Source of the DNA: Hyphomicrobiales bacterium
GTDB taxonomy: Bacteria > Pseudomonadota > Alphaproteobacteria > Rhizobiales > Rhizobiaceae
Reading direction: 5' to 3'
Assembly (NCBI GenBank): GCA_900473795.1
Contig: UCMT01000040.1
Coordinates: forward strand, 1 to 64,000
Length of the DNA stretch: 64,000 nt
Shown here: positions 2,652-22,316 of the stretch, one piece after another
How positions within the stretch are numbered: the stretch's first letter is position 1
Layout of the letters: the number at the start of each line of letters is the position of its first letter
Notes under the pieces: model-generated
What the model was told of the DNA's origin: nothing
The model's input: only the letters and a program-made list of their open reading frames with translations
Database searches by the model: none
Program-made: the position numbers and the translations under genes

Positions 2652-3140
2652 ATGTCACGCGCAATCAAGCATCTGCTTATCGGAGGGCTAATCATCATGA
2701 CCATGGCAGTTCCCACGGCGACGACAGCGAATGAGAGCGATCTCAAGCTGACCATCGTCAATCCACAAAACCTCTACGACCCGACGCCGAACGGCTACAG
2801 CACGGCGGTGATTGTGCCCCGCGAAGCCCGCGTGGCCTACATCTCCGGACAGGGCGGCCAAGACAGCACTGGAGCCTTGTCGCCCGATTTTTCGGTGCAG
2901 GTGGAACAAGCATATGCGAACCTGCGCACTGCGCTTGAAGGGATCGGTGCGAAACCGGATCAGGTCGCCAAGCTGACAGTCTTCGTGGTCGATCACGATA
3001 TGTCCAAGCTTGAGGTGTTGACCAGGAACGTCAAGCAAATGTTCGGCGAGGCGCTGCCGGCGCAGACTCTGATTCCCGTCCCCAAGCTTGCAATTGACCC
3101 CATGCTCTTCGAGGTCGAAGCCGTCGTCATTCTGGAATAG
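2652..3140 (+). CDS. Exported RidA/YjgF-family protein
   Basis: The 162-residue product has a signal peptide (about residues 1-26, ending PTATTANES) before a RidA fold, whereas typical RidA proteins are cytosolic and about 130 residues. Canonical RidA uses an arginine (the ARSC segment before the last strand) to hold and hydrolyse 2-aminoacrylate imines. Here the equivalent reads PAQTLIPV with Gln in its place, so classic imine deaminase activity is doubtful. AGGAG precedes the ATG. The divergent TetR gene and its operator suggest inducible expression. The substrate is unknown. Confidence 0.8.
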   Translation: MSRAIKHLLIGGLIIMTMAVPTATTANESDLKLTIVNPQNLYDPTPNGYSTAVIVPREARVAYISGQGGQDSTGALSPDFSVQVEQAYANLRTALEGIGAKPDQVAKLTVFVVDHDMSKLEVLTRNVKQMFGEALPAQTLIPVPKLAIDPMLFEVEAVVILE

Positions 3141-3172
3141 TGGCGGCGACGGACCAGGCGCGATAGCCGTTC

Positions 3173-3241
3173 CTTTTCCATCGTCGTAACAGCCGCACGC
3201 AGCTCTTCCAGTTCGGCGGCGAGGGTGGAGAAGCGGGCTTT
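3173..3241 (-). pseudogene. Remnant of the C-terminal end of an ABC-F ATPase gene
   Basis: Read leftward, this piece encodes RFSTLAAELEELRAAVTTME, closely matching RFSTLATELEKLRASITQME near the C-terminus of the intact ABC-F protein at 8350-10176. The DNA aligns with about 8379-8460 without gaps over roughly 68 bases. There is no start codon and a TAA lies about 30 codons upstream in frame. No ATPase motifs remain. It looks like the leftover of a duplicated or recombined gene end rather than a working coding region. Confidence 0.6.
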
Positions 3242-3334
3242 TTTTTGGCGGCGGGTTTCAGCTCAGAAATCCGCGTCGAGTTTCCCGTAATTTACGGGGA
3301 TTTGGCGAGCGTCCAATCTTCTCGAGTGAGCCAC

Positions 3335-4615
3335 TTAAACGGTGACGCTGCCGAGGCAACTTTGGAGCAATCGCCGTCTTAAGTGGATGACCGCTGAAGT
3401 CGCTTTGTGGGCTCTCAGTAAGAATGATTGTGTCCCGCGCCAGCGGTGGCCGCTTCGGCAAGACCGCCGCCGCCTTATGGAGATCACGCCGGTCAGACGC
3501 TTACTGCGATTGACGCCCGGCAGAGGGAGAACTTGAACCTCGCACATGCCGCGCACACCGTCATCAACGGTCTCGTCCGAGCAATATTCGACATCTGCAT
3601 CGCCGCCCAGGCCGTTGGCCAGGGCGTATTCGGACGGCCGCTCAAAGTGGCCGATCTCAGGCAACATCACGAATTGCTCGAATGTCTGGAACGCGGCCGC
3701 GGCCCTGGTCCCTGTCTGGTAGGAGGCGCTTGGCGTATTGCCGGCAAATTTCGTCTGCGTCGACCACAGAGACTGACCGTTGCCCCGCAAATGGTCGCCC
3801 AGCGACTGATAGGCCACCATCAGGCCGGTTGCGATCTGAGGCGCCGGATCGACGACCGGGAAGCGGTCACTCTGCTTGACGTAGGAGGCCATGAGGTAAG
3901 ACATATCGTGTCCGCCCAAGCGGGCGTGGTCCACATACTGCACCCGAACGGTACCCGTGCCACGGTGCTTCAGGTCGAGCATGTCGGCTGCCTTGCTGGA
4001 AACGTCGATGATGCGACCGTGGTGAAAGGGACCGCGATCGTTGACGCGCACGATGAGCGACGAACCGTTTTCAAGATTGGTCACCCGCACATAGCTGGGC
4101 AGGGGAAGGGTCGGATGCGCGGCAGAAAGGTGATCCGGGTCGTAAATTTCGCCGTTTGCGGTCAGGCGCCCGCGAAATGCCGAGCCGTACCAGGAAGCGA
4201 CGCCCTTCTTGTCGTAGTTCGGCTCTTCCTTCGGATAATAGCGCTTGCCTTTCACCACATAGGGCTTGCCGATCATATAGCGGCCACCGCCCTTGGGAAT
4301 ATTCTTGCCGTAGGCGACCCGCGGGCCCGCCTTCACGCCGTATGCCTTTTCGGAAATGTATCCTTTGCTGTCCGGCGCTTGCGTGGTCGTGCAGGCAGCA
4401 CAGCTGCAGCAGACCATCGTGATCGCCAGCCATCGCAGGCCTCTGACAGCCGTCCTTACATCAATACCCATCCGTCCAACGCTGGCGACAGCCTTCCGTG
4501 CATCTGCGACAAGCCGGTCACGCGCTTGCAGTCCGCTGTGCATCGTGTCGAGGGGCAGACGGTTTTGCAGCTGAGGCACTCGTCGATGTATTGCAACATT
4601 CTGGGGACGGCCCAT
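3335..4615 (-). CDS. rlpA: RlpA-like septal ring lytic transglycosylase, lipoprotein
   Basis: The core GVASWYGSAFRGRLTANGEIYDPDHLSAAHPTLPLPSYVRVTNL...VRVNDRGPFHHGRIIDVSSKAA is the RlpA double-psi beta-barrel with its catalytic Asp and His context. RlpA cleaves glycan strands stripped of peptides at the septum. The ATG at 4615 has a strong AAGGAG, giving 426 residues. A lipoprotein signal (MVCCSCAAC) begins only at an internal ATG near 4471, which may be the functional start. I see no SPOR domain. The last 50 or so residues are arginine-rich and unlike a folded tail, so a frameshift near 3480-3500 is possible. Confidence 0.8.
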   Translation of the reverse strand: MGRPQNVAIHRRVPQLQNRLPLDTMHSGLQARDRLVADARKAVASVGRMGIDVRTAVRGLRWLAITMVCCSCAACTTTQAPDSKGYISEKAYGVKAGPRVAYGKNIPKGGGRYMIGKPYVVKGKRYYPKEEPNYDKKGVASWYGSAFRGRLTANGEIYDPDHLSAAHPTLPLPSYVRVTNLENGSSLIVRVNDRGPFHHGRIIDVSSKAADMLDLKHRGTGTVRVQYVDHARLGGHDMSYLMASYVKQSDRFPVVDPAPQIATGLMVAYQSLGDHLRGNGQSLWSTQTKFAGNTPSASYQTGTRAAAAFQTFEQFVMLPEIGHFERPSEYALANGLGGDADVEYCSDETVDDGVRGMCEVQVLPLPGVNRSKRLTGVISIRRRRSCRSGHRWRGTQSFLLRAHKATSAVIHLRRRLLQSCLGSVTV

Positions 4616-14229: not shown

Positions 14230-14240
14230 TCCTCTTGCTC

Positions 14241-14340
14241 TAACGGGGTGCCGTTCGTCCTACCTGGACGTGCGGCTGAGAGGCTTGCAGAAGCCAACCC
14301 GCGGAACCTGATCCGGTTTGCACCGGCGGAGGGATTAGAC
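14241..14340 (+). ncRNA. TPP riboswitch (THI element) for thiBPQ
   Basis: Conserved blocks occur in order: GGGGTGCC (14245-14252), CTGAGA (14276-14281), an ACCC, GAACCTGATCCGG (14304-14316), then the closing GCGGAGGGA (14326-14334). Together these form the pyrimidine- and pyrophosphate-binding arms of the THI box. It ends 50 bases before the thiB start and its AAGGAGG site, so TPP binding probably blocks translation initiation, the usual mode in proteobacteria. Confidence 0.93.
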
Positions 14341-14390
14341 GGCACATGTCAGCGCCCTATTCCCAACACTTGGATTTAAAGGAGGCGCCG

Positions 14391-15401
14391 ATGCGCAAGG
14401 CATTCATTCCCTTTCTTGCGGCAATTGCTGCAATCACCACAGCGTCTTCCACGGCGGCCGCCGACAAGACGCTGACCGTCTACACCTATGAAAGCTTCAC
14501 CAGCGAATGGGGTCCGGCGGCCAAGGTCGCCGAAGCCTTCGAAAAGACCTGCGGCTGCAAGGTCGAGTATGTCAGCGTCGCCGACGGTGTCGAGCTTTTG
14601 ACCCGGTTGAAGCTCGAAGGGGCCGCCTCCAAGGCCGATATCGTGCTCGGCCTCGACACCAATCTCGTCTCCGAAGCCAAGGCGACCGGCTTCTTCGCAC
14701 CGCATGGCCTCGATCTCTCCGCCGTCAAGGTTCCCGGCGGCTTCACCGATGATACCTTCGTTCCCTATGACTACGGCCACTTCGCGGTGATCTACGACAC
14801 CGAGACGATGAAGGAACCGCCCAAAAGCCTGAAGGAGCTGGTCGAGGGCGATGCGAGCCAGAAGATCGTCATCGAGGACCCGCGCACCTCGACGCCGGGC
14901 CTCGGCCTGTTGCTGTGGGTCAAGTCGGTCTATGGCGATCAGGCAGGTAGCGCCTGGGCGAAACTCAAGGATCGCGTTTTGACGGTAACGCCCGGCTGGT
15001 CCGAGGCCTATGGCCTGTTCACCAAGGGCGAGGCGCCGATGGTGCTGTCCTACACGACCTCGCCCGCCTACCACATGATCGCGGAAAACACCGACCGCTA
15101 TCAGGCGGCGGCCTTTTCGGAGGGTCACTACATCCAGATCGAAGTGGCCGGCATGACGAAGAATGCCAAGGACCCGGCGCTCGCCAAGGACTTCCTTTCC
15201 TTCGTTACCGGACCGGAGTTCCAGTCGATCATCCCGACGACCAACTGGATGATGCCGGTGGCCGCCACCAAGGAGCCGCTGCCGGAGGCCTTCGGCAAGC
15301 TGGTCAATCCGGAAAAGACTTTTCTGATGTCTTCCGACGAGGTTGCCGCCAACCGCAAGGCCTGGATCGACGAGTGGCTCGCCGCCATGAGCAAGAACTG
15401 A
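14391..15401 (+). CDS. thiB: Thiamine ABC transporter, periplasmic binding protein
   Basis: The 336-residue product has a signal peptide ([24 protein letters not shown]) and the ThiB pattern [34 protein letters not shown], with [16 protein letters not shown] and [20 protein letters not shown] later. It captures thiamine or its phosphates for import. The ATG at 14391 is chosen for the AAGGAGG 5 bases upstream. An earlier in-frame ATG at 14346 would spoil the signal peptide. It is the first gene behind the TPP riboswitch and is followed by thiP and thiQ after a 182-base gap holding a repeat. Confidence 0.95.
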
Positions 15402-15434
15402 GACAGCAGGTGATGATCGTTTCGTCTGTGCAAG

Positions 15435-15551
15435 TGCCCCTCATCCGCCCTGTCGGGCACCTTCTCCCCGTAAACGGGGAGAAGGACCATACGGCTGACT
15501 CGGAACAAGTCCCCTCTCCCCGCGAGCGGGGAGAGGGCTAGGGTGAGGGGC
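15435..15551. repeat. RIME-like palindromic mosaic repeat, copy 3, inside the thi operon
   Basis: GTGCCCCTCATCCGCCCTGT begins the unit and GGGCTAGGGTGAGGGGC closes it. Inner hairpins CTTCTCCCCG-TAAA-CGGGGAGAAG and CTCTCCCCGCGAGCGGGGAGAG are perfect. It lies between thiB (stop 15401) and thiP (start 15584). Confidence 0.8.
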
Positions 15552-15583
15552 CGGATAACGCATCGAAAACCGACAAGGCTCCT

Positions 15584-17227
15584 ATGATCGCGCGCATTGA
15601 GAGACGTTTCACGGTTGCCGCCGGGGCGCTCTGCCTCGGCGGCATCGTTCTGTTCGTCTGCCTCGCCGCCTTCGCCTTGCTTGCCTTCGATGAGCCGGGT
15701 GCAGCGCGGCAGGCGGGGCTTTTCGACGCCTATGTCTGGCGCGTGATGCGGTTCACGCTGCTGCAGGCCTCGCTGTCGACATTCCTGTCGATCGTGCTCG
15801 CCATTCCCGTTGCCCGCGCGCTGGCGCGGCAACCGTCCTTTCCCGGGCGGGTCTGGATCATCCGGTTGCTGGCGTTGCCGCTCGGCCTGCCGGCGCTGGT
15901 CGCGGCGCTGGGTCTGATCGGCATCTGGGGGCGGCAGGGGCTGTTCAACACGACGTTTGCCTGGCTGGGACTGGACCAGCCGATCAGCATCTACGGACTA
16001 TCCGGCATCCTGCTCGCGCATGTGTTCTTCAACCTGCCGCTGGCCGCGCGGCTGATGCTCGGCGGACTGGAACGGATTCCCGGCGAATATTGGCTGGTCG
16101 GCGCCAATCTCGGCATGCGGCCGCTTTCGACCTTCCGCTTCATCGAATGGCCGGCCATTCGCGGTCTGCTGCCCGGCATTGCCGGCCTCATCTTCATGCT
16201 CTGCGTCACCAGCTTCACCCTGGTGCTGACCCTCGGTGGCGGGCCGGCGGCGAGCACCATCGAGGTGGCGATCTATCAGGCGCTGCGCTTCGATTTCGAT
16301 CCGCCGTGTGCGATCGCCCTGTCATTGTTGCAGATCACCCTGACGGCAGCCTTACTGGTGGCAATGCGCCTTCTGACGCCGAAAGTCGAGGAAGGTCAGG
16401 GCGGCGGGCGCGACGTCAGGCGCTTCGATGGGCGCAATCTTTCGGGCAAGGTGGGCGATGGCCTGGCCATTGCGCTCGCCGTGCTGTTCCTGGCACTGCC
16501 GCTCTGCTCGGTCATCGCCTCCGGTCTGCGGTCCGATCTCTGGAAGCTCGTGGGCGATCCGATGGCGCAGCAGGCCCTTGCCACCAGCCTCGTCGTTGCT
16601 TTTGTGTCCGGCACGCTCTGTGTCGCGGCGACGGCGGTGATGATCCGCGCGCGGCAGATATCGCTGGCGCCGAGGCTGGCCCGGAAGCGTCATCGCGGCT
16701 TTGCGGCGGCTATTTCCATGAGCGCATCCCTGGTGCTGCTGGTGCCGCCCGTCGTCCTGGGGGCGGGCTGGTTCCTGCTGCTGCGGCCGCTCGGCGATGT
16801 CGCCGCCCTTGCGCCGCTGCTGGTCATCCTGATCAACATGCTGATGGCGCTGCCCTTCGTCTATCGCGTGCTGGAGCCGGCCATGGCCAGCCATTTGGCC
16901 CGCACCGGCAGGCTTGCCGCGAGCCTCGGGCTCGGCGGCTGGCACCGGTTGCGCTTCGTCGACTGGCCGGTGCTGCGCAAGCCGCTCCTGATGGCGCTGT
17001 CCTTTGCCTGTGCGCTGTCGCTCGGCGATCTCGGCGCGGTGGCGCTGTTCGGATCGCAGGATATGGTCACGCTGCCCTGGCTGCTCTATAGCCGGATGGG
17101 CAGCTACCGTTCCACCGATGCGGCGGGGCTGGCGCTGTTTCTCGGCCTGGTCTGCCTCGTGCTGACTATCGCCGGCACGCCATCTGCGGCGAGGAATGAC
17201 CAAAGGAGCAAGAATGCCGCCGCGTGA
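15584..17227 (+). CDS. thiP: Thiamine ABC transporter permease
   Basis: The 547-residue inner-membrane protein is a fused double permease with about 12 helices. It carries two ABC-permease EAA loops, one around [36 protein letters not shown] and one around [32 protein letters not shown], where ThiQ docks. It forms the thiamine channel fed by ThiB. The last 14 bases overlap thiQ, supporting coupled translation. The RIME-like repeat upstream could reduce its expression relative to thiB. Confidence 0.93.
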
Positions 17228-17936
17228 CACGGAGACAGCCATTCGCCTTGGCGGCGTGCGCGTGCAGTTCGACAAGACGGAACTGCGTTTCGATTGCGCG
17301 ATCCGGCAGGGCGAGATCGTTGCCATCACCGGCGCCTCCGGTTCCGGCAAATCGACCCTCCTCAATATCGTCGCCGGTTTCGAGATGCCGGATGCCGGCG
17401 CGGTCGAGATCCTCGGCGAAGATGTCGCCAGCCGCGATCCGGCGGAGCGGCCGGTCTCGGTGATCTTCCAGGAACACAACCTGTTTTCGCATCTCGATGT
17501 CGCCACCAATATCGCGCTCGGCATCGACCCGGCCCTCAGACTGGGCGTGAAGGAGCGCGGAAAGGTTGCCTCCGCGCTGATGCGCGTCGGGCTCGAAGGC
17601 TTCGGCAAGCGGCTGCCGCCGACGCTGTCCGGCGGCGAGCGTCAGCGGGTGGCGCTGGCGCGCGCCTTGGTCCGCCGCAGGCCCATCCTTCTTCTCGACG
17701 AGCCCTTCGCGGCGCTCGACCCGGGCCTGCGCTCCGGCATGACCAGCCTGCTCCTCGATCTGCACGCGCAGGAAGGCAATACAATGCTGATCGTCACGCA
17801 TCATCCGGACGATGTGCGGGCGCTGGCCGACAGCGTGATCTTCCTCGACGAGGGCCGCGTCCTGCTGCACGAATCCAAGGCGCAATTCCTCGATCACACC
17901 GACAGTCCGGCCGTTGCGCGTTTTCTCGGAAAATGA
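17214..17936 (+). CDS. thiQ: Thiamine ABC transporter ATP-binding protein
   Basis: The 240-residue ATPase energises ThiBP. Walker [13 protein letters not shown]-loop [21 protein letters not shown], signature [15 protein letters not shown], Walker [14 protein letters not shown] and the switch His in IVTHHPDDV are all present. The ATG at 17214 is behind AAAGGAG, while an ATG at 17196 lies inside thiP without a comparable site. It overlaps the thiP end by 14 bases. The 285 bases from here to the M48 protease gene show no gene or clear terminator. Confidence 0.93.
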
Positions 17937-18221: not shown

Positions 18222-19733
18222 ATGAACAGAACGACAGGCACGGATCCGCAGTCTTCGGAGAAAAGCTCCGGCGTATCCCTGCGTGCTGCAAGCGCGCTCG
18301 CCGGCATGCTGCTGCTCGCCGGCTGCCAGTCGGTGATCGAACAGACCTATGAGCCGAAGGTCGCGCCGTCCTCGACACCGCAGATCGTCGAGGAGGTGCA
18401 GAAGAACGACCCGCGCGCCCAGGTCGGCGCCCGCGAGCACCCGCGCATCGTCGCGAGCTATGGCGGCGAATACAAGGACGAGAAGACCGAGCGTCTCGTT
18501 GCCCGCATCACCGGCGCGCTGACGGCGGTGTCGGAAAATCCGAACCAGTCCTACCGCATCACCATCCTCAATTCGCCGGCGATCAACGCGTTTGCGCTGC
18601 CCGGCGGCTATCTCTATGTCACCCGCGGCCTCCTGGCGCTTGCCGATGATGCGTCGGAAGTGGCCGCCGTGCTGTCCCACGAGATGGCGCACGTGACGGC
18701 CAATCACGGCATCGAGCGGCAGCAGCGCGAGGAGGCGGAGGTGATCGCCAGCCGCGTTGTTTCCGAAGTGCTCTCCAGCGATCTCGCCGGCAAGCAGGCG
18801 CTTGCGCGCGGCAAGCTGAGGCTTGCGGCCTTCTCGCGAAACCAGGAACTGCAGGCCGACGTCATCGGCGTGCGGATGCTCGGCGAGGCCGGCTACGATC
18901 CCTATGCCGCCGCCCGTTTCCTCGATGCGATGGCAGCCTATAGCCGCTTTTCCTCGGTCGATCCCGACAGCGACCAGAGCCTCGACTTCCTGTCGAGCCA
19001 TCCGAGCGCGCCGCAGCGCGTCGATCTTGCCCGTCGTCATGCGCGGGCCTTCGGCGCGGAAGGAACGGTCGGCGATCGCGGCCGCGACTATTATCTCGCC
19101 GGCATCGACGGGCTGCTCTACGGCGACAGCCCGCAGGAGGGCTATGTCCGCGGCCAGACGTTCCTGCACGGCAAGCTCGGCATTCGTTTCGACGTGCCGG
19201 CCGGCTTCCAGATCGACAACAAGGCGGAAGCGGTGCTGGCGACCGGACCGGGCGAGGTTGCCATCCGCTTCGATGGCGTCGCCGATACGCAACGCCGCGG
19301 CCTGACCGACTATATCGCCAGCGGCTGGGTCACGGGCCTGCAGCCCGACACCATCCGGCCGATCACGATCAACGGTCTCGAGGCCGCCACGGCGCGCGCC
19401 TCGGCCGAGCGCTGGGACTTCGACGTCACGGTGATCCGCATCGATACGCAGATCTACCGCTTTCTGACGGCTGTACCGAAGGGCGCGCCGAGCCTCGAGC
19501 CGACGGCGGACATCCTGCGGGCCTCCTTCCGCCGCATGACGTCGCAGGAAGCGGCCGCGCTGAAGCCGCTGCGTATCCGCGTCATCACGGCCAAGCCCGG
19601 CGATACGCTGGCGACCCTCTCGGCCCGGATGATGGGCACCGACCGCAAGCTCGATCTCTTCCGCCTGATCAACGCGATGCAGGTGACGTCTACGGTCAAG
19701 CCGGGCGACAGGATCAAGATCATCTCGGAATAA
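18222..19733 (+). CDS. M48-family metalloprotease lipoprotein with LysM domain
   Basis: A 503-residue envelope lipoprotein has lipobox LLAGC (Cys35), zinc site HEMAH (residues 153-157) and third ligand Glu208 in NQELQADVIGVRM, so all M48 catalytic residues are present. A middle domain follows, and the last 50 residues (AKPGDTLATLSARMMG...LINAMQVTSTVKPGDRIKI) form a LysM peptidoglycan-binding module. This architecture is BepA/YfgC-like and suggests quality control of outer-membrane assembly, with LysM anchoring it to the wall. It appears monocistronic. Confidence 0.9.
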   Translation: MNRTTGTDPQSSEKSSGVSLRAASALAGMLLLAGCQSVIEQTYEPKVAPSSTPQIVEEVQKNDPRAQVGAREHPRIVASYGGEYKDEKTERLVARITGALTAVSENPNQSYRITILNSPAINAFALPGGYLYVTRGLLALADDASEVAAVLSHEMAHVTANHGIERQQREEAEVIASRVVSEVLSSDLAGKQALARGKLRLAAFSRNQELQADVIGVRMLGEAGYDPYAAARFLDAMAAYSRFSSVDPDSDQSLDFLSSHPSAPQRVDLARRHARAFGAEGTVGDRGRDYYLAGIDGLLYGDSPQEGYVRGQTFLHGKLGIRFDVPAGFQIDNKAEAVLATGPGEVAIRFDGVADTQRRGLTDYIASGWVTGLQPDTIRPITINGLEAATARASAERWDFDVTVIRIDTQIYRFLTAVPKGAPSLEPTADILRASFRRMTSQEAAALKPLRIRVITAKPGDTLATLSARMMGTDRKLDLFRLINAMQVTSTVKPGDRIKIISE

Positions 19734-19798: not shown

Positions 19799-19969
19799 TT
19801 ATCTGAGGCGCTGATCGATCGGGAGCGTGAGGGACCAGGCGCTTGACCGGTGGACGCGAAGCCGCGGCAAAGGCCCTGCGCAGTCGGGCGTGTCCCCGGG
19901 ATTGGGATAACGTGGATTGCCCCAGCGATCATTGTAGAGGTCCTTGAACAGGCAAGCTATCGGGATCAT
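19799..19969 (-). CDS. Small ORF under LacI-type control, unknown function
   Basis: A 56-codon frame begins MIPIACLFKDLYNDRWGNPR and continues YPNPGDTPDCAGPLPRLR. The ATG at 19969 has GGAG 6 bases upstream. A near-consensus leftward promoter (20029-20056) with palindromic operators leads directly into it, and no other gene lies on that strand before the convergent M48 gene. The C-terminal half is basic and unstructured-looking. I do not recognise the product. It could be a small peptide or a truncated gene. Confidence 0.45.
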   Translation of the reverse strand: MIPIACLFKDLYNDRWGNPRYPNPGDTPDCAGPLPRLRVHRSSAWSLTLPIDQRLR

Positions 19970-19982
19970 GACGTTCTCCATA

Positions 19983-19996
19983 TTGAATCGATTCAA
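19983..19996. promoter_or_regulatory. LacI-type operator 1
   Basis: TTGAATCGATTCAA is a perfect 14-bp palindrome. It is in the leader of the leftward small ORF and matches the operators at 20015-20028 and 20062-20075. Confidence 0.7.
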
Positions 19997-20014
19997 GAAT
20001 CGAATGCGGAAGAT

Positions 20015-20028
20015 TTGAACCGATTCAA
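20015..20028. promoter_or_regulatory. LacI-type operator 2
   Basis: TTGAACCGATTCAA differs from operator 1 by one base and directly abuts the -10 box of the leftward promoter, the position expected to block initiation. Confidence 0.7.
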
Positions 20029-20056
20029 AATTTACGCGCTAACGGCAAAATGTCAA
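20029..20056 (-). promoter_or_regulatory. Leftward promoter between lacI and the small ORF
   Basis: On the minus strand TTGACA (20051-20056) and TAAATT (20029-20034) are 16 bp apart. The transcript would run away from lacI towards the 56-codon ORF. Confidence 0.6.
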
Positions 20057-20061
20057 GAGAT

Positions 20062-20075
20062 TTGAATCGATACAA
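20062..20075. promoter_or_regulatory. LacI-type operator 3, at the lacI promoter
   Basis: TTGAATCGATACAA is a one-mismatch copy and contains TACAAT (20071-20076), a good -10 box for lacI itself. This implies autoregulation. I see no convincing -35 box for that direction. Confidence 0.65.
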
Positions 20076-20120
20076 TCTTCTGATAGGGTGAGGTTGGTTT
20101 GCACAGCTGCGGGAGGTACC

Positions 20121-21179
20121 TTGACAAAGGGGCATGTAAGACTGGCTGATGTCGCCAAGGCGGCCGGTGTATCGCAGGGGACGGCGTCGAACGTTTTCAG
20201 CCGGCCAGAGGTGGTACGCGAAGAAGTCCGCGAGCGGGTGCTCGGGATCGCCAGGACGCTCGGCTATAACGGCCCGGACATCAAAGGGCGCTTGCTGAGG
20301 GCCGGGCGCGTCAACGCCATCGGCGTCGCTTCGGTCGAGCCGCTGGCGTATTTCTTTGAGGATCCGTGGGCGCGGGCGCTGATGACGAAGATCGCGGCGG
20401 TGTGCGACGCCACCGGCACCGGCATCGCACTGGTGTCGGCGCAGAACCAGCAAAAACTGGCCTGGAACATCAACAGCGCGCTTGTCGATGGTTTCATCCT
20501 GTTGTGCGTGGAAGGCGGTGAAAGGCTCGTCGAACTGACAAGGCGGCGACAGTTGCCGTTCATCGCCCTGGCGCTCGGCGGCGCGGACACCTCGATCCCG
20601 GTGATCGGCATCGATAACCTTGCTGGCGCAGCCATGGCAGCGCGATATCTGGCGGATCTCGGGCATCGCCGGTTTGCCGTTCTGGCAATAGACCATTTTG
20701 ACGAGCACGTCGGGGCGACAGGGCCAGGGCCTGCGGCTCGATCCTTGAAATCGACGTCGCGCGACCGCTTGCTCGGCTATTGGCAGACCTTGGCGGAGTT
20801 CGGCATCGAGCGCGAAAGCGTGCCTGTGCACGGCACCCGCAGCGATCGATCGAGCGTCGATACGGCGCTCAATGCCCTGTTTGCAGCACCGCAGCCCCCG
20901 ACGGCCATCCTGGCGATGTCCGACCGCATTGCTCTCTTTGCCATGCAATGGCTCACCGAGCGTGGCATCGAGGTGCCGGGCGATGTCTCCGTGATCGGCT
21001 TTGATGGCGTCCCAGAAGCCGCAACGGCTGAGCCGGGGCTGACGACCATTGCACAACCGTTTGATGAGATTGCGCGCAGGGCGGTAAGCGCCATCCTTGA
21101 CGACGCATTGCCCGACGCGCAGGAAACCCTCGACGTGACGCTGGTTATCCGGGACAGCACCGCACCCCCACGGTCATAG
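20121..21179 (+). CDS. LacI/GalR-family transcriptional regulator
   Basis: The helix-turn-helix VRLADVAKAAGVSQGTASNVFSRPEVV at the N-terminus is followed by a periplasmic-binding-protein-like sensor domain with DGFILLC, SIPVIGIDN and VSVIGFDG segments. The TTG at 20121 follows GGGAGG by 4 bases and puts the DNA-binding domain at the very N-terminus (352 residues). A GTG at 20088 would add 11 unlikely residues. Three matching palindromes upstream are its probable sites. The inducer, presumably a sugar, is unknown, and no sugar catabolic gene is adjacent. Confidence 0.88.
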   Translation: MTKGHVRLADVAKAAGVSQGTASNVFSRPEVVREEVRERVLGIARTLGYNGPDIKGRLLRAGRVNAIGVASVEPLAYFFEDPWARALMTKIAAVCDATGTGIALVSAQNQQKLAWNINSALVDGFILLCVEGGERLVELTRRRQLPFIALALGGADTSIPVIGIDNLAGAAMAARYLADLGHRRFAVLAIDHFDEHVGATGPGPAARSLKSTSRDRLLGYWQTLAEFGIERESVPVHGTRSDRSSVDTALNALFAAPQPPTAILAMSDRIALFAMQWLTERGIEVPGDVSVIGFDGVPEAATAEPGLTTIAQPFDEIARRAVSAILDDALPDAQETLDVTLVIRDSTAPPRS

Positions 21180-21252: not shown

Positions 21253-22119
21253 TCAATGCGGCAGCGTCGCCAGCACCGGGGCTTCCGCGACAAGCGCGAT
21301 CCTGAGCTTTTCCAGCGCCCGGGTCTCGATCTGGCGGACGCGCTCCTTCGAGATGCCGAGATCGGCGCCCAGCTCTTCGAGGGTGGCGCTGTCTTCCGAC
21401 AGGCGGCGGGCGCGGATGATTTTCATTTCCCGCTCGTTTAGCTGGCAAAGCGCATGGCTGAGCCAGATACGCCGCCGCTCCTGATCGATTATCTCGGAAA
21501 CCTGCTCGTCCGGCAACGGCGCATCGCTGGCGAGAAGGTCGAGCCGCTCGCCGCTGTCGGCATCGCCCGACGAGATCGGCGCCTGCAGCGAGGCGTCATT
21601 GCTGGAAAGCCGGGCATCCATCGTCTGTACGTCGGCGAGGCTGACGCCGAGCGCCAGGGCGATTTCCTCGTGCACGGCGCGGGCCGTCAGCTGCCGGTCG
21701 CCCTGGGCGAGCTTGGCGCGCAGACGGCGCAGGTTGAAGAACAGGGCCTTCTGCGCCGAAGACGTGCCGCCGCGCACGATCGACCAGTTGCGCAGCACGT
21801 AATCCTGCATCGAGGCGCGGATCCACCAGCTGGCATAGGTCGAGAACCGCACCTCGCGGCTGGGTTCGAAGCGGGCGGCGGCTTCCAAGAGGCCGATATG
21901 GCCTTCCTGGACCAGATCGCTCATCGGCAGGCCGAAATTGCGGAATTTCGCCGCCATCGAGATCACCAGACGCATATGGGCCATGGCGATCTTGTTGCGG
22001 GCCTCCTGATCGTTGTGGTCCTTCCACGCCAGCGCCAAAGCCTGCTCCTCGTCCCGTTCGAGATAGGGAGCCGCCATTGCGATCTTGATCATGCGCCTGT
22101 CTGCTGAGAGGTTTTTCAT
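21253..22119 (-). CDS. rpoH2: RNA polymerase sigma factor RpoH2 (sigma-32 family)
   Basis: The 288-residue protein has region 2 (MSDLVQEGHIGLLEAAARFEP, FSTYASWWIRASMQDYVLRNWSIV), the RpoH box QKALFFNLRR, and region 4 with LEELGADLGISKERVRQIETRALEKLR. It directs polymerase to heat and oxidative stress promoters. Rhizobia carry two RpoH proteins, and I assign the second type from the upstream EcfG-type promoter (22317-22341) and sequence character. The ATG at 22119 has GGAG 8 bases upstream, preferred over the ATG at 22140. Confidence 0.88.
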   Translation of the reverse strand: MKNLSADRRMIKIAMAAPYLERDEEQALALAWKDHNDQEARNKIAMAHMRLVISMAAKFRNFGLPMSDLVQEGHIGLLEAAARFEPSREVRFSTYASWWIRASMQDYVLRNWSIVRGGTSSAQKALFFNLRRLRAKLAQGDRQLTARAVHEEIALALGVSLADVQTMDARLSSNDASLQAPISSGDADSGERLDLLASDAPLPDEQVSEIIDQERRRIWLSHALCQLNEREMKIIRARRLSEDSATLEELGADLGISKERVRQIETRALEKLRIALVAEAPVLATLPH

Positions 22120-22316
22120 CGGCTGCTCCATGAGGGGCACAAGGGTGTGCCGCTGAACGATAAGTCGATCGTGTTTCGGGATTTCCGCTGCCTGAGCTTG
22201 ACCAGCATTCGAAACGCCCTACTTCCCTGCCTAGAAGCCGAGGCCGGAAGAAAGGGCCGCGGTGGTGATGGTCCCGCTCCGCAACGACATGCGCAAGCCG
22301 GGACTGAACGTGTCAA

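Follow-up and report, generated by a model that had tools for sequence, protein, structure and literature searches.

At the locus under study, which lies in a window of 64,000 nucleotides (the whole stretch of DNA that we analyzed), a small ORF and a gene for a LacI-family repressor point away from each other, and the interval between them holds predicted operators and promoters. From left to right, the features of this two-gene unit are as follows.

19799–19969, minus strand: small ORF of 56 amino acids plus stop (MIPIACLFKDLYNDRWG...AWSLTLPIDQRLR), from the ORF listing and the genus alignment
19976–19979, minus strand: GGAG ribosome-binding site, 6 nt 5′ of the ATG, read off the sequence
19983–19996: predicted operator O3, TTGAATCGATTCAA, downstream of the expected transcription start and upstream of the ribosome-binding site
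20015–20028: predicted operator O2, TTGAACCGATTCAA, abutting the −10 element and lying over the expected transcription start
20029–20056, minus strand: predicted leftward promoter, TTGACA-16-TAAATT, from a promoter-pattern scan
20062–20075: predicted operator O1, TTGAATCGATACAA, within the lacI promoter region
20062–20089, plus strand: putative weak lacI promoter (TTGAAT inside O1, 16 bp, TAGGGT), deduced from the sequence
20071–20076, plus strand: TACAAT, a candidate alternative −10 element for lacI, likewise deduced
20121–21179, plus strand: LacI-family repressor of 352 amino acids with a TTG start (Pfam: LacI HTH, Peripla_BP_3)

The initial annotation had described three matching 14-bp palindromes, one abutting a near-consensus leftward promoter and one in the lacI promoter, and all three were found: O2 adjoins the −10 element TAAATT and, because lacI starts at TTG 20121, O1 falls in the promoter region of the repressor gene. 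The leftward promoter (minus strand; TTGACA at 20056–20051, a 16-bp spacer and TAAATT at 20034–20029, with 10 of 12 matches) is the sole promoter-like site between 19600 and 20300, where 0.2 were expected. When as many as 3 mismatches were allowed, 6 operator-like matches turned up in the 64-kb window versus 2.18 expected, a number reached in 3 of 100 shuffles; the sites with 0–1 mismatch numbered three, all inside 93 bp. Across the whole 6.39-Mb genome, TTGAAYCGATTCAA at ≤1 mismatch occurred three times, as O1, O2 and O3, and the reversed-pattern control once. When we searched 19 unit-bearing genomes for exact TTGRAYCGRTYCAA, 47 of the 49 sites lay at the unit (against a total of 2 sites for the reversed pattern in the same genomes), and thus the repressor is, by that test, a one-target regulator. 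Both sites elsewhere were in a single genome, G395, at C70:161 and at C32:81642 (locus L096), where reading revealed no clear target gene.

The small ORF, which had been annotated as a 56-codon ORF with a good ribosome site, runs on the minus strand from ATG 19969 to a stop at 19799, with GGAG at 19979–19976. A 60-codon reading from an in-frame ATG four codons upstream was rejected; because that ATG overlaps the ribosome-binding site and, in the related locus L004, lies out of frame, 19969 is the better start. The ORF had zero Pfam or NCBIfam matches at E ≤ 1, and AlphaFold2 predicted short N-terminal helices with low confidence (mean pLDDT 61.8). The unit is flanked by an M48 peptidase gene (18222–19733, plus strand) and by a gene for a sigma-70-family factor (21253–22140), which we take to be of the RpoH type; a Pfam scan of the neighbors found no sugar gene adjoining lacI or the small ORF, as had been noted initially. 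As the leftward neighbor, the M48 gene, is convergent, the small ORF is the one candidate product of the leftward transcript; ~65 nt separate the ORF stop from the end of the M48 gene. A leader peptide or attenuator was discarded on the same grounds, there being no larger gene downstream in the transcript. Elsewhere in the window, a TPP riboswitch (14234–14351, plus strand; Rfam RF00059, 66.6 bits) precedes genes that by eye resemble a thiamine ABC transporter operon (14346–17936).

The domains of the repressor fit the LacI/GalR family (PF00356, E = 1.6e-10; PF13377, E = 8.9e-31), and the nearest solved structure by sequence was 3h5t; the predicted structure had a mean pLDDT of 73.9 and was poor across much of residues 54–155. 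Of the traits usual in this family, palindromic operators near its own promoter are present at the sequence level. Control of sugar catabolism found no counterpart, as judged by the genome-wide operator search at ≤1 mismatch and by the adjoining genes. A search of plasmids with this LacI as the query gave zero matches at E ≤ 1e-60.

Searching related genomes for the ORF next to lacI, as the initial annotation had proposed, we found an ortholog of LacI (E ≤ 3e-93) in 11 of the 26 genomes of the genus, each of which also had the small ORF (E below 1e-13); the 15 others had neither, their best match to the small ORF being at E of about 0.01. The unit stood directly after the M48 gene in all 11 unit-bearing genomes. 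Seven of the 15 genomes without it showed a clean empty site, at which the M48 and sigma-factor genes converge about 50–140 bp apart; in three more this distance was 585–896 bp, and in the remaining five the sigma factor lay outside the fetched stretch. Within the genus, then, the unit is present or absent as a whole block. An ORF broken by stops beside retained operators had been named as evidence against a functional product, and this is not what the genus shows, as 10 of the 11 genomes have an intact ORF. The ten intact copies encode 54–72 amino acids, with 20 invariant columns clustered towards both ends. The remaining genome (L011, also G014) is a 78%-complete assembly with frameshifts, possibly from sequencing error, in lacI as well as in the small ORF.

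A profile search of 394 genomes of the family placed the ORF family in further genera. Fifteen of the 16 family loci that we read carried LacI divergent from the ORF; the exception (L074), a chance match at E = 0.002 inside a 605-codon frame and without LacI, was rejected as a member. We then scanned named genomes with an alignment of LacI and examined the best 80 of at least 250 relatives, a sample rich in Mesorhizobium that includes Rhizobium, Phyllobacterium, Devosia, Kaistia, Prosthecomicrobium, a Bosea MAG, Bauldia, Rubellimicrobium and remoter organisms. An HMM of the N-terminal motif M[HI]PxxYLF[EK]D[IVL]YxxxW, which was chosen after reading these loci and seeded from them, matched at the divergent position in 61 of the 80, and three more (L111, L119 and L154) were recognized by eye, so that 64 of these 80 carry the ORF. 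The divergent family ORF was likewise present at 64 of the 72 loci among them whose LacI is at least 55% identical. Off-site HMM matches in the best 80 numbered only three (best E = 0.8), and the single match among 69 control loci (E = 0.004) came from L055, a genuine copy that had entered the control set in error. Because some of the named loci (L numbers) are the same records as genomes in our other samples (G numbers), counts from the two sets must not be summed.

The operator layout recurs with the gene pair. By criteria fixed after examples had been seen, 71 of the best 80 loci contained an O1/O2 array at ≤2 mismatches, with an O1–O2 spacing of 46–50 bp in 66 of the 71 and TTGAC or TTGAT between the two operators in 70; O3 was present in 51 of the 71 arrays, at an O2–O3 spacing of 30–35 bp in 47 of those 51. 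The earlier proposal that LacI controls a leftward transcript with the small ORF as its only product finds support both in this conservation across genera and in the uniqueness of the operators. At L069, L070, L072, L148 and many other Mesorhizobium loci, family ORFs occur in tandem, the second behind its own operator; on the Mesorhizobium side there are also two loci in which the second copy is kept but the first is broken by a stop near its beginning (L068) or has a degraded motif (L073).

In a sample of 397 genomes of the order, LacI occurred in 54 at E ≤ 1e-80 and in 37 at E ≤ 2.8e-131. Thirty of these 37 had the ORF family (E ≤ 1.6e-6), which at this threshold was found in none of the other order genomes; weak matches (E = 0.004–0.006) came from G555 and G733. 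A further 17 genomes had LacI only at E values of 2e-124 to 3e-91, among which we read seven places (G562, G776, G608, G692, G632, G046 and G051). Among 289 genomes of the class, there were four remoter relatives of LacI besides that of the window, and relaxing the threshold to 1e-50 added none.

Whether the conserved feature is the protein or the RNA can be judged from how the ORF varies. Among five close relatives (loci L001–L005), six of the seven listed pairs had a pN/pS of 0.14–0.21 and the closest pair 0.33; pooled over ten genus copies, the ratio was 0.45 for the whole ORF, 0.39 for its N-terminal part and 0.29 for its C-terminal part. For wider comparisons we picked 86 rows from 59 loci by regular expression. 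First ORFs of 47 codons that begin with MHPV (25 rows, chiefly from Mesorhizobium, a group that excludes other lengths and starts such as MHPL and the 45-codon ORF of L148) had a pN/pS of 0.10 over codons 2–18 and 0.62 in the tail, and gave 1.14 and 1.35 in the shifted frames. The second tandem ORFs (25 rows) had a ratio of 0.16, rising to 0.70 over codons 19–28, and the MIP/MLP group (24 rows) one of 0.41 over codons 2–16. The tails are therefore weakly constrained (0.62–0.70), and the conserved part shows a third-position excess. Among 72 distinct N-termini, pre-filtered for P at position 3 and including one false pick (L124, 3856–3993, which is outside the pN/pS groups), L7 was present in 68, F8 in 67, Y12 in 67 and W16 in 65.

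Judged by these codon patterns, constraint acts on the protein, mainly on its first 18 residues. The region of the small ORF had no Rfam match at the gathering threshold. The initial annotation had left three outputs open, namely a small peptide, a regulatory RNA and a remnant of a lost catabolic gene; codon-level selection, the conserved start and ribosome-binding site, and the conserved pairing with LacI favor a functional small protein, and the idea of a remnant does not stand. The output of the transcript is thus probably a small protein under selection, rather than a remnant or just an RNA, and the transcript may have a role as a dual-function RNA.

Loci that keep this LacI but face a different ORF are informative about what the repressor controls. 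Among the best 80 of 250, eight of the 72 loci with LacI at least 55% identical lack the family ORF (L149, L171, L175, L187, L174, L181, L169 and L172). In Mesorhizobium albiziae (L149), the operators face a 74-amino-acid ORF without a match. Leftward from lacI at that locus and 68 bp past this ORF, in the same direction, is phoU (2722–3492, minus strand; PF01895, E = 1.1e-45), a possible link to phosphate signaling at one locus only. In Rubellimicrobium (L171, L175 and L187), LacI and two operators face ORFs of about 120–145 amino acids that look alike by eye; the ORF of L171, the only one of the three scanned, is NlpC/P60-like at E = 0.009, which is below the cutoff. L174 and L181 have a DUF1127-like ORF below the Pfam cutoff. 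No small ORF was recognized at L169, which has one operator and an RlmL-type methyltransferase gene next on the left, or at L172, where the next leftward ORF is partial, unmatched and at the contig end. In a tree of LacI sequences, the Rubellimicrobium branch was nested among rows with the ORF family at 99/97 support, and Bauldia was nested among them with support that was not firm. The starred branches forced at least three label changes, one of which is the border to the remote rows, among which the tree tool warned of long branches.

DUF1127-type ORFs recur at this position. The seven of the 37 order genomes without the family ORF are L215, L216 and L217 (family f6), L224, L225, G588 and L218. 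The first five have DUF1127-like ORFs: that of L224 is above the Pfam cutoff, those of L216 and L225 below it (the latter being the same ORF as that of L181), and those of L215 and L217 are unmatched and assigned by eye only. G588 is the same sequence as L174, and L218 has a 58-amino-acid ORF. Of the remoter LacI relatives, L264 and L265 have other palindromes, CTGAATGCATTCAG, and divergent DUF1127 ORFs, two of them in L265; against a cutoff of 23.3 bits, the L264 ORF scored 27.3 and the L265 ORFs 18.3 (first) and 23.8 (second), so that L224, L264 and the second ORF of L265 exceed the cutoff at the equivalent position. The ORF of L263 is unmatched, and L266 lacks an array. An operator array was also absent in the LacI relatives L220–L222, L179, L180 and L183; L219 has the array and a 60-amino-acid ORF with no match at the cutoff, and L223 has different operators before an ORF of ~147 amino acids. 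A sequence relation between the YLF-motif family and the DUF1127-like set was rejected by hhalign profile comparison (probability 0.1%).

The other replacements, an NlpC/P60-like protein and unmatched ORFs of 58, 60 and 74 amino acids, do not suggest a single shared function. The odds seem to us evenly balanced that this alphaproteobacterial branch of LacI has left sugar catabolism and now runs stand-alone small proteins, with the sensor and its array fixed and unrelated outputs exchanged beneath them, namely the YLF-motif family, DUF1127-type proteins, the 58-amino-acid ORF and the NlpC/P60-like protein.

Our preferred reading, to which we give a probability of roughly two in three, is that the locus is a self-contained two-gene unit in which a LacI-type metabolite sensor is dedicated to one small, probably regulatory, protein. 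Because the expected transcription start is covered by O2, the leader contains O3 and the promoter region of lacI contains O1, a single repressor can shut both genes: LacI on O1, O2 and O3 would silence the leftward promoter, and on O1 its own promoter. The repressor would be freed from its operators by a small metabolite, which, given the family to which LacI belongs, is probably a sugar or a derivative of one, upon which the 56-amino-acid protein, with its short N-terminal motif (M-I/H-P-x-x-Y-L-F-E/K-D-I/V/L-Y-x-x-x-W) and variable tail, would be made. This protein would most likely bind another protein or an RNA and so adjust metabolism, as small DUF1127 proteins do. A regulatory role is suggested by its size, by its exchange with DUF1127-type proteins and by what those proteins do, the analogy being an indirect one; phoU next to the 74-amino-acid ORF of L149, though a single case, points in this direction too. 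Because the two-gene unit and its operator layout recur in many soil and plant bacteria, the unit appears to be a small signaling device rather than the leftover of a lost sugar pathway.

Several other readings deserve weighing. The pairing of LacI with the ORF in most loci seen, and operators almost confined to the unit, would also suit a bistable self-switch in which the small protein is an anti-repressor or co-effector of its own LacI. We consider this unlikely, because LacI orthologs in the same tree face unrelated small ORFs (in Rubellimicrobium with firm support, in Bauldia without), which does not easily allow a partnership between LacI and the protein, and because a switch without an outside output has no obvious use. 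The protein might instead be non-regulatory and belong, as an accessory component, to a transporter or enzyme whose gene lies elsewhere, for which the hydrophobic tail in some relatives (Kaistia and Devosia) speaks. However, no neighbor gene was widely shared (in 50 of the best 80 loci, the widest cluster listed reached 4 of 18 genus-level labels), and replacement by unrelated small ORFs would be odd for a structural subunit, which makes this reading quite improbable.

A short, tightly controlled transcript, predicted to be monocistronic and with little room between the ORF stop and the M48 gene, could act mainly as a regulatory or dual-function RNA to which the ORF is secondary, but the conserved part has a low pN/pS and an excess of third-position changes, which, together with the empty Rfam search, makes this very improbable. 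Least credible to us is the remnant of a lost catabolic operon, even though nearly 90% of the LacI regulators studied are local regulators of sugar use (PMC4052901). Conservation across genera under selection, a unit that is wholly present or absent, its site being cleanly empty in 7 of the 15 genus genomes lacking it, and the related loci read, where no sugar-catabolic operon was recognized behind the operator array, all argue against it.

If it is a dedicated sensor–effector pair, the unit can be compared with several known systems. LacI-family regulators are mostly local controllers of sugar-use pathways (Ravcheev et al. 2014; PMC4052901). The unit resembles these in its palindromic operators, apparent autoregulation and one divergent target unit, and differs in that the sole target found here is a stand-alone small ORF. 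DUF1127 proteins (the Agrobacterium SDPs, YjiS and CcaF1) are small proteins of Alphaproteobacteria and other bacteria that affect carbon and phosphate metabolism, at least partly by binding the sensor kinase PhoR (PMC12501420). DUF1127 or DUF1127-like ORFs occupy the same place in related LacI units, yet the small ORF here had no Pfam match to PF06568 (DUF1127) at E ≤ 1. The unit is also like other small systems in its proposed logic. In SgrS/SgrT and SR1P, too, a very small protein tunes metabolism in response to a metabolic signal; unlike the unit here, they are RNA-based or dual-function systems rather than a dedicated pair with LacI. In the literature searched, with most subscription papers and preprints outside it, neither this group of LacI proteins nor its operator nor the ORF family is described as far as we could find; the operator and motif strings are absent, and we saw no related paper that brings LacI together with DUF1127; the main text of a paper on the S. 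meliloti small proteome does not contain the word 'LacI'. The small-protein family thus apparently has not been described so far.

These results give a clade of LacI a testable class of function and the small-protein family a clean genetic handle, comprising one regulator, one target and one promoter. If the pairing of sensor and small effector is true, a metabolite signal would lead to control through a small effector rather than to new enzymes, and if outputs were exchanged under a fixed sensor, the unit would show how small regulatory proteins get recruited. By tying DUF1127-type proteins to a metabolite sensor, it may also bear on which signals control them.
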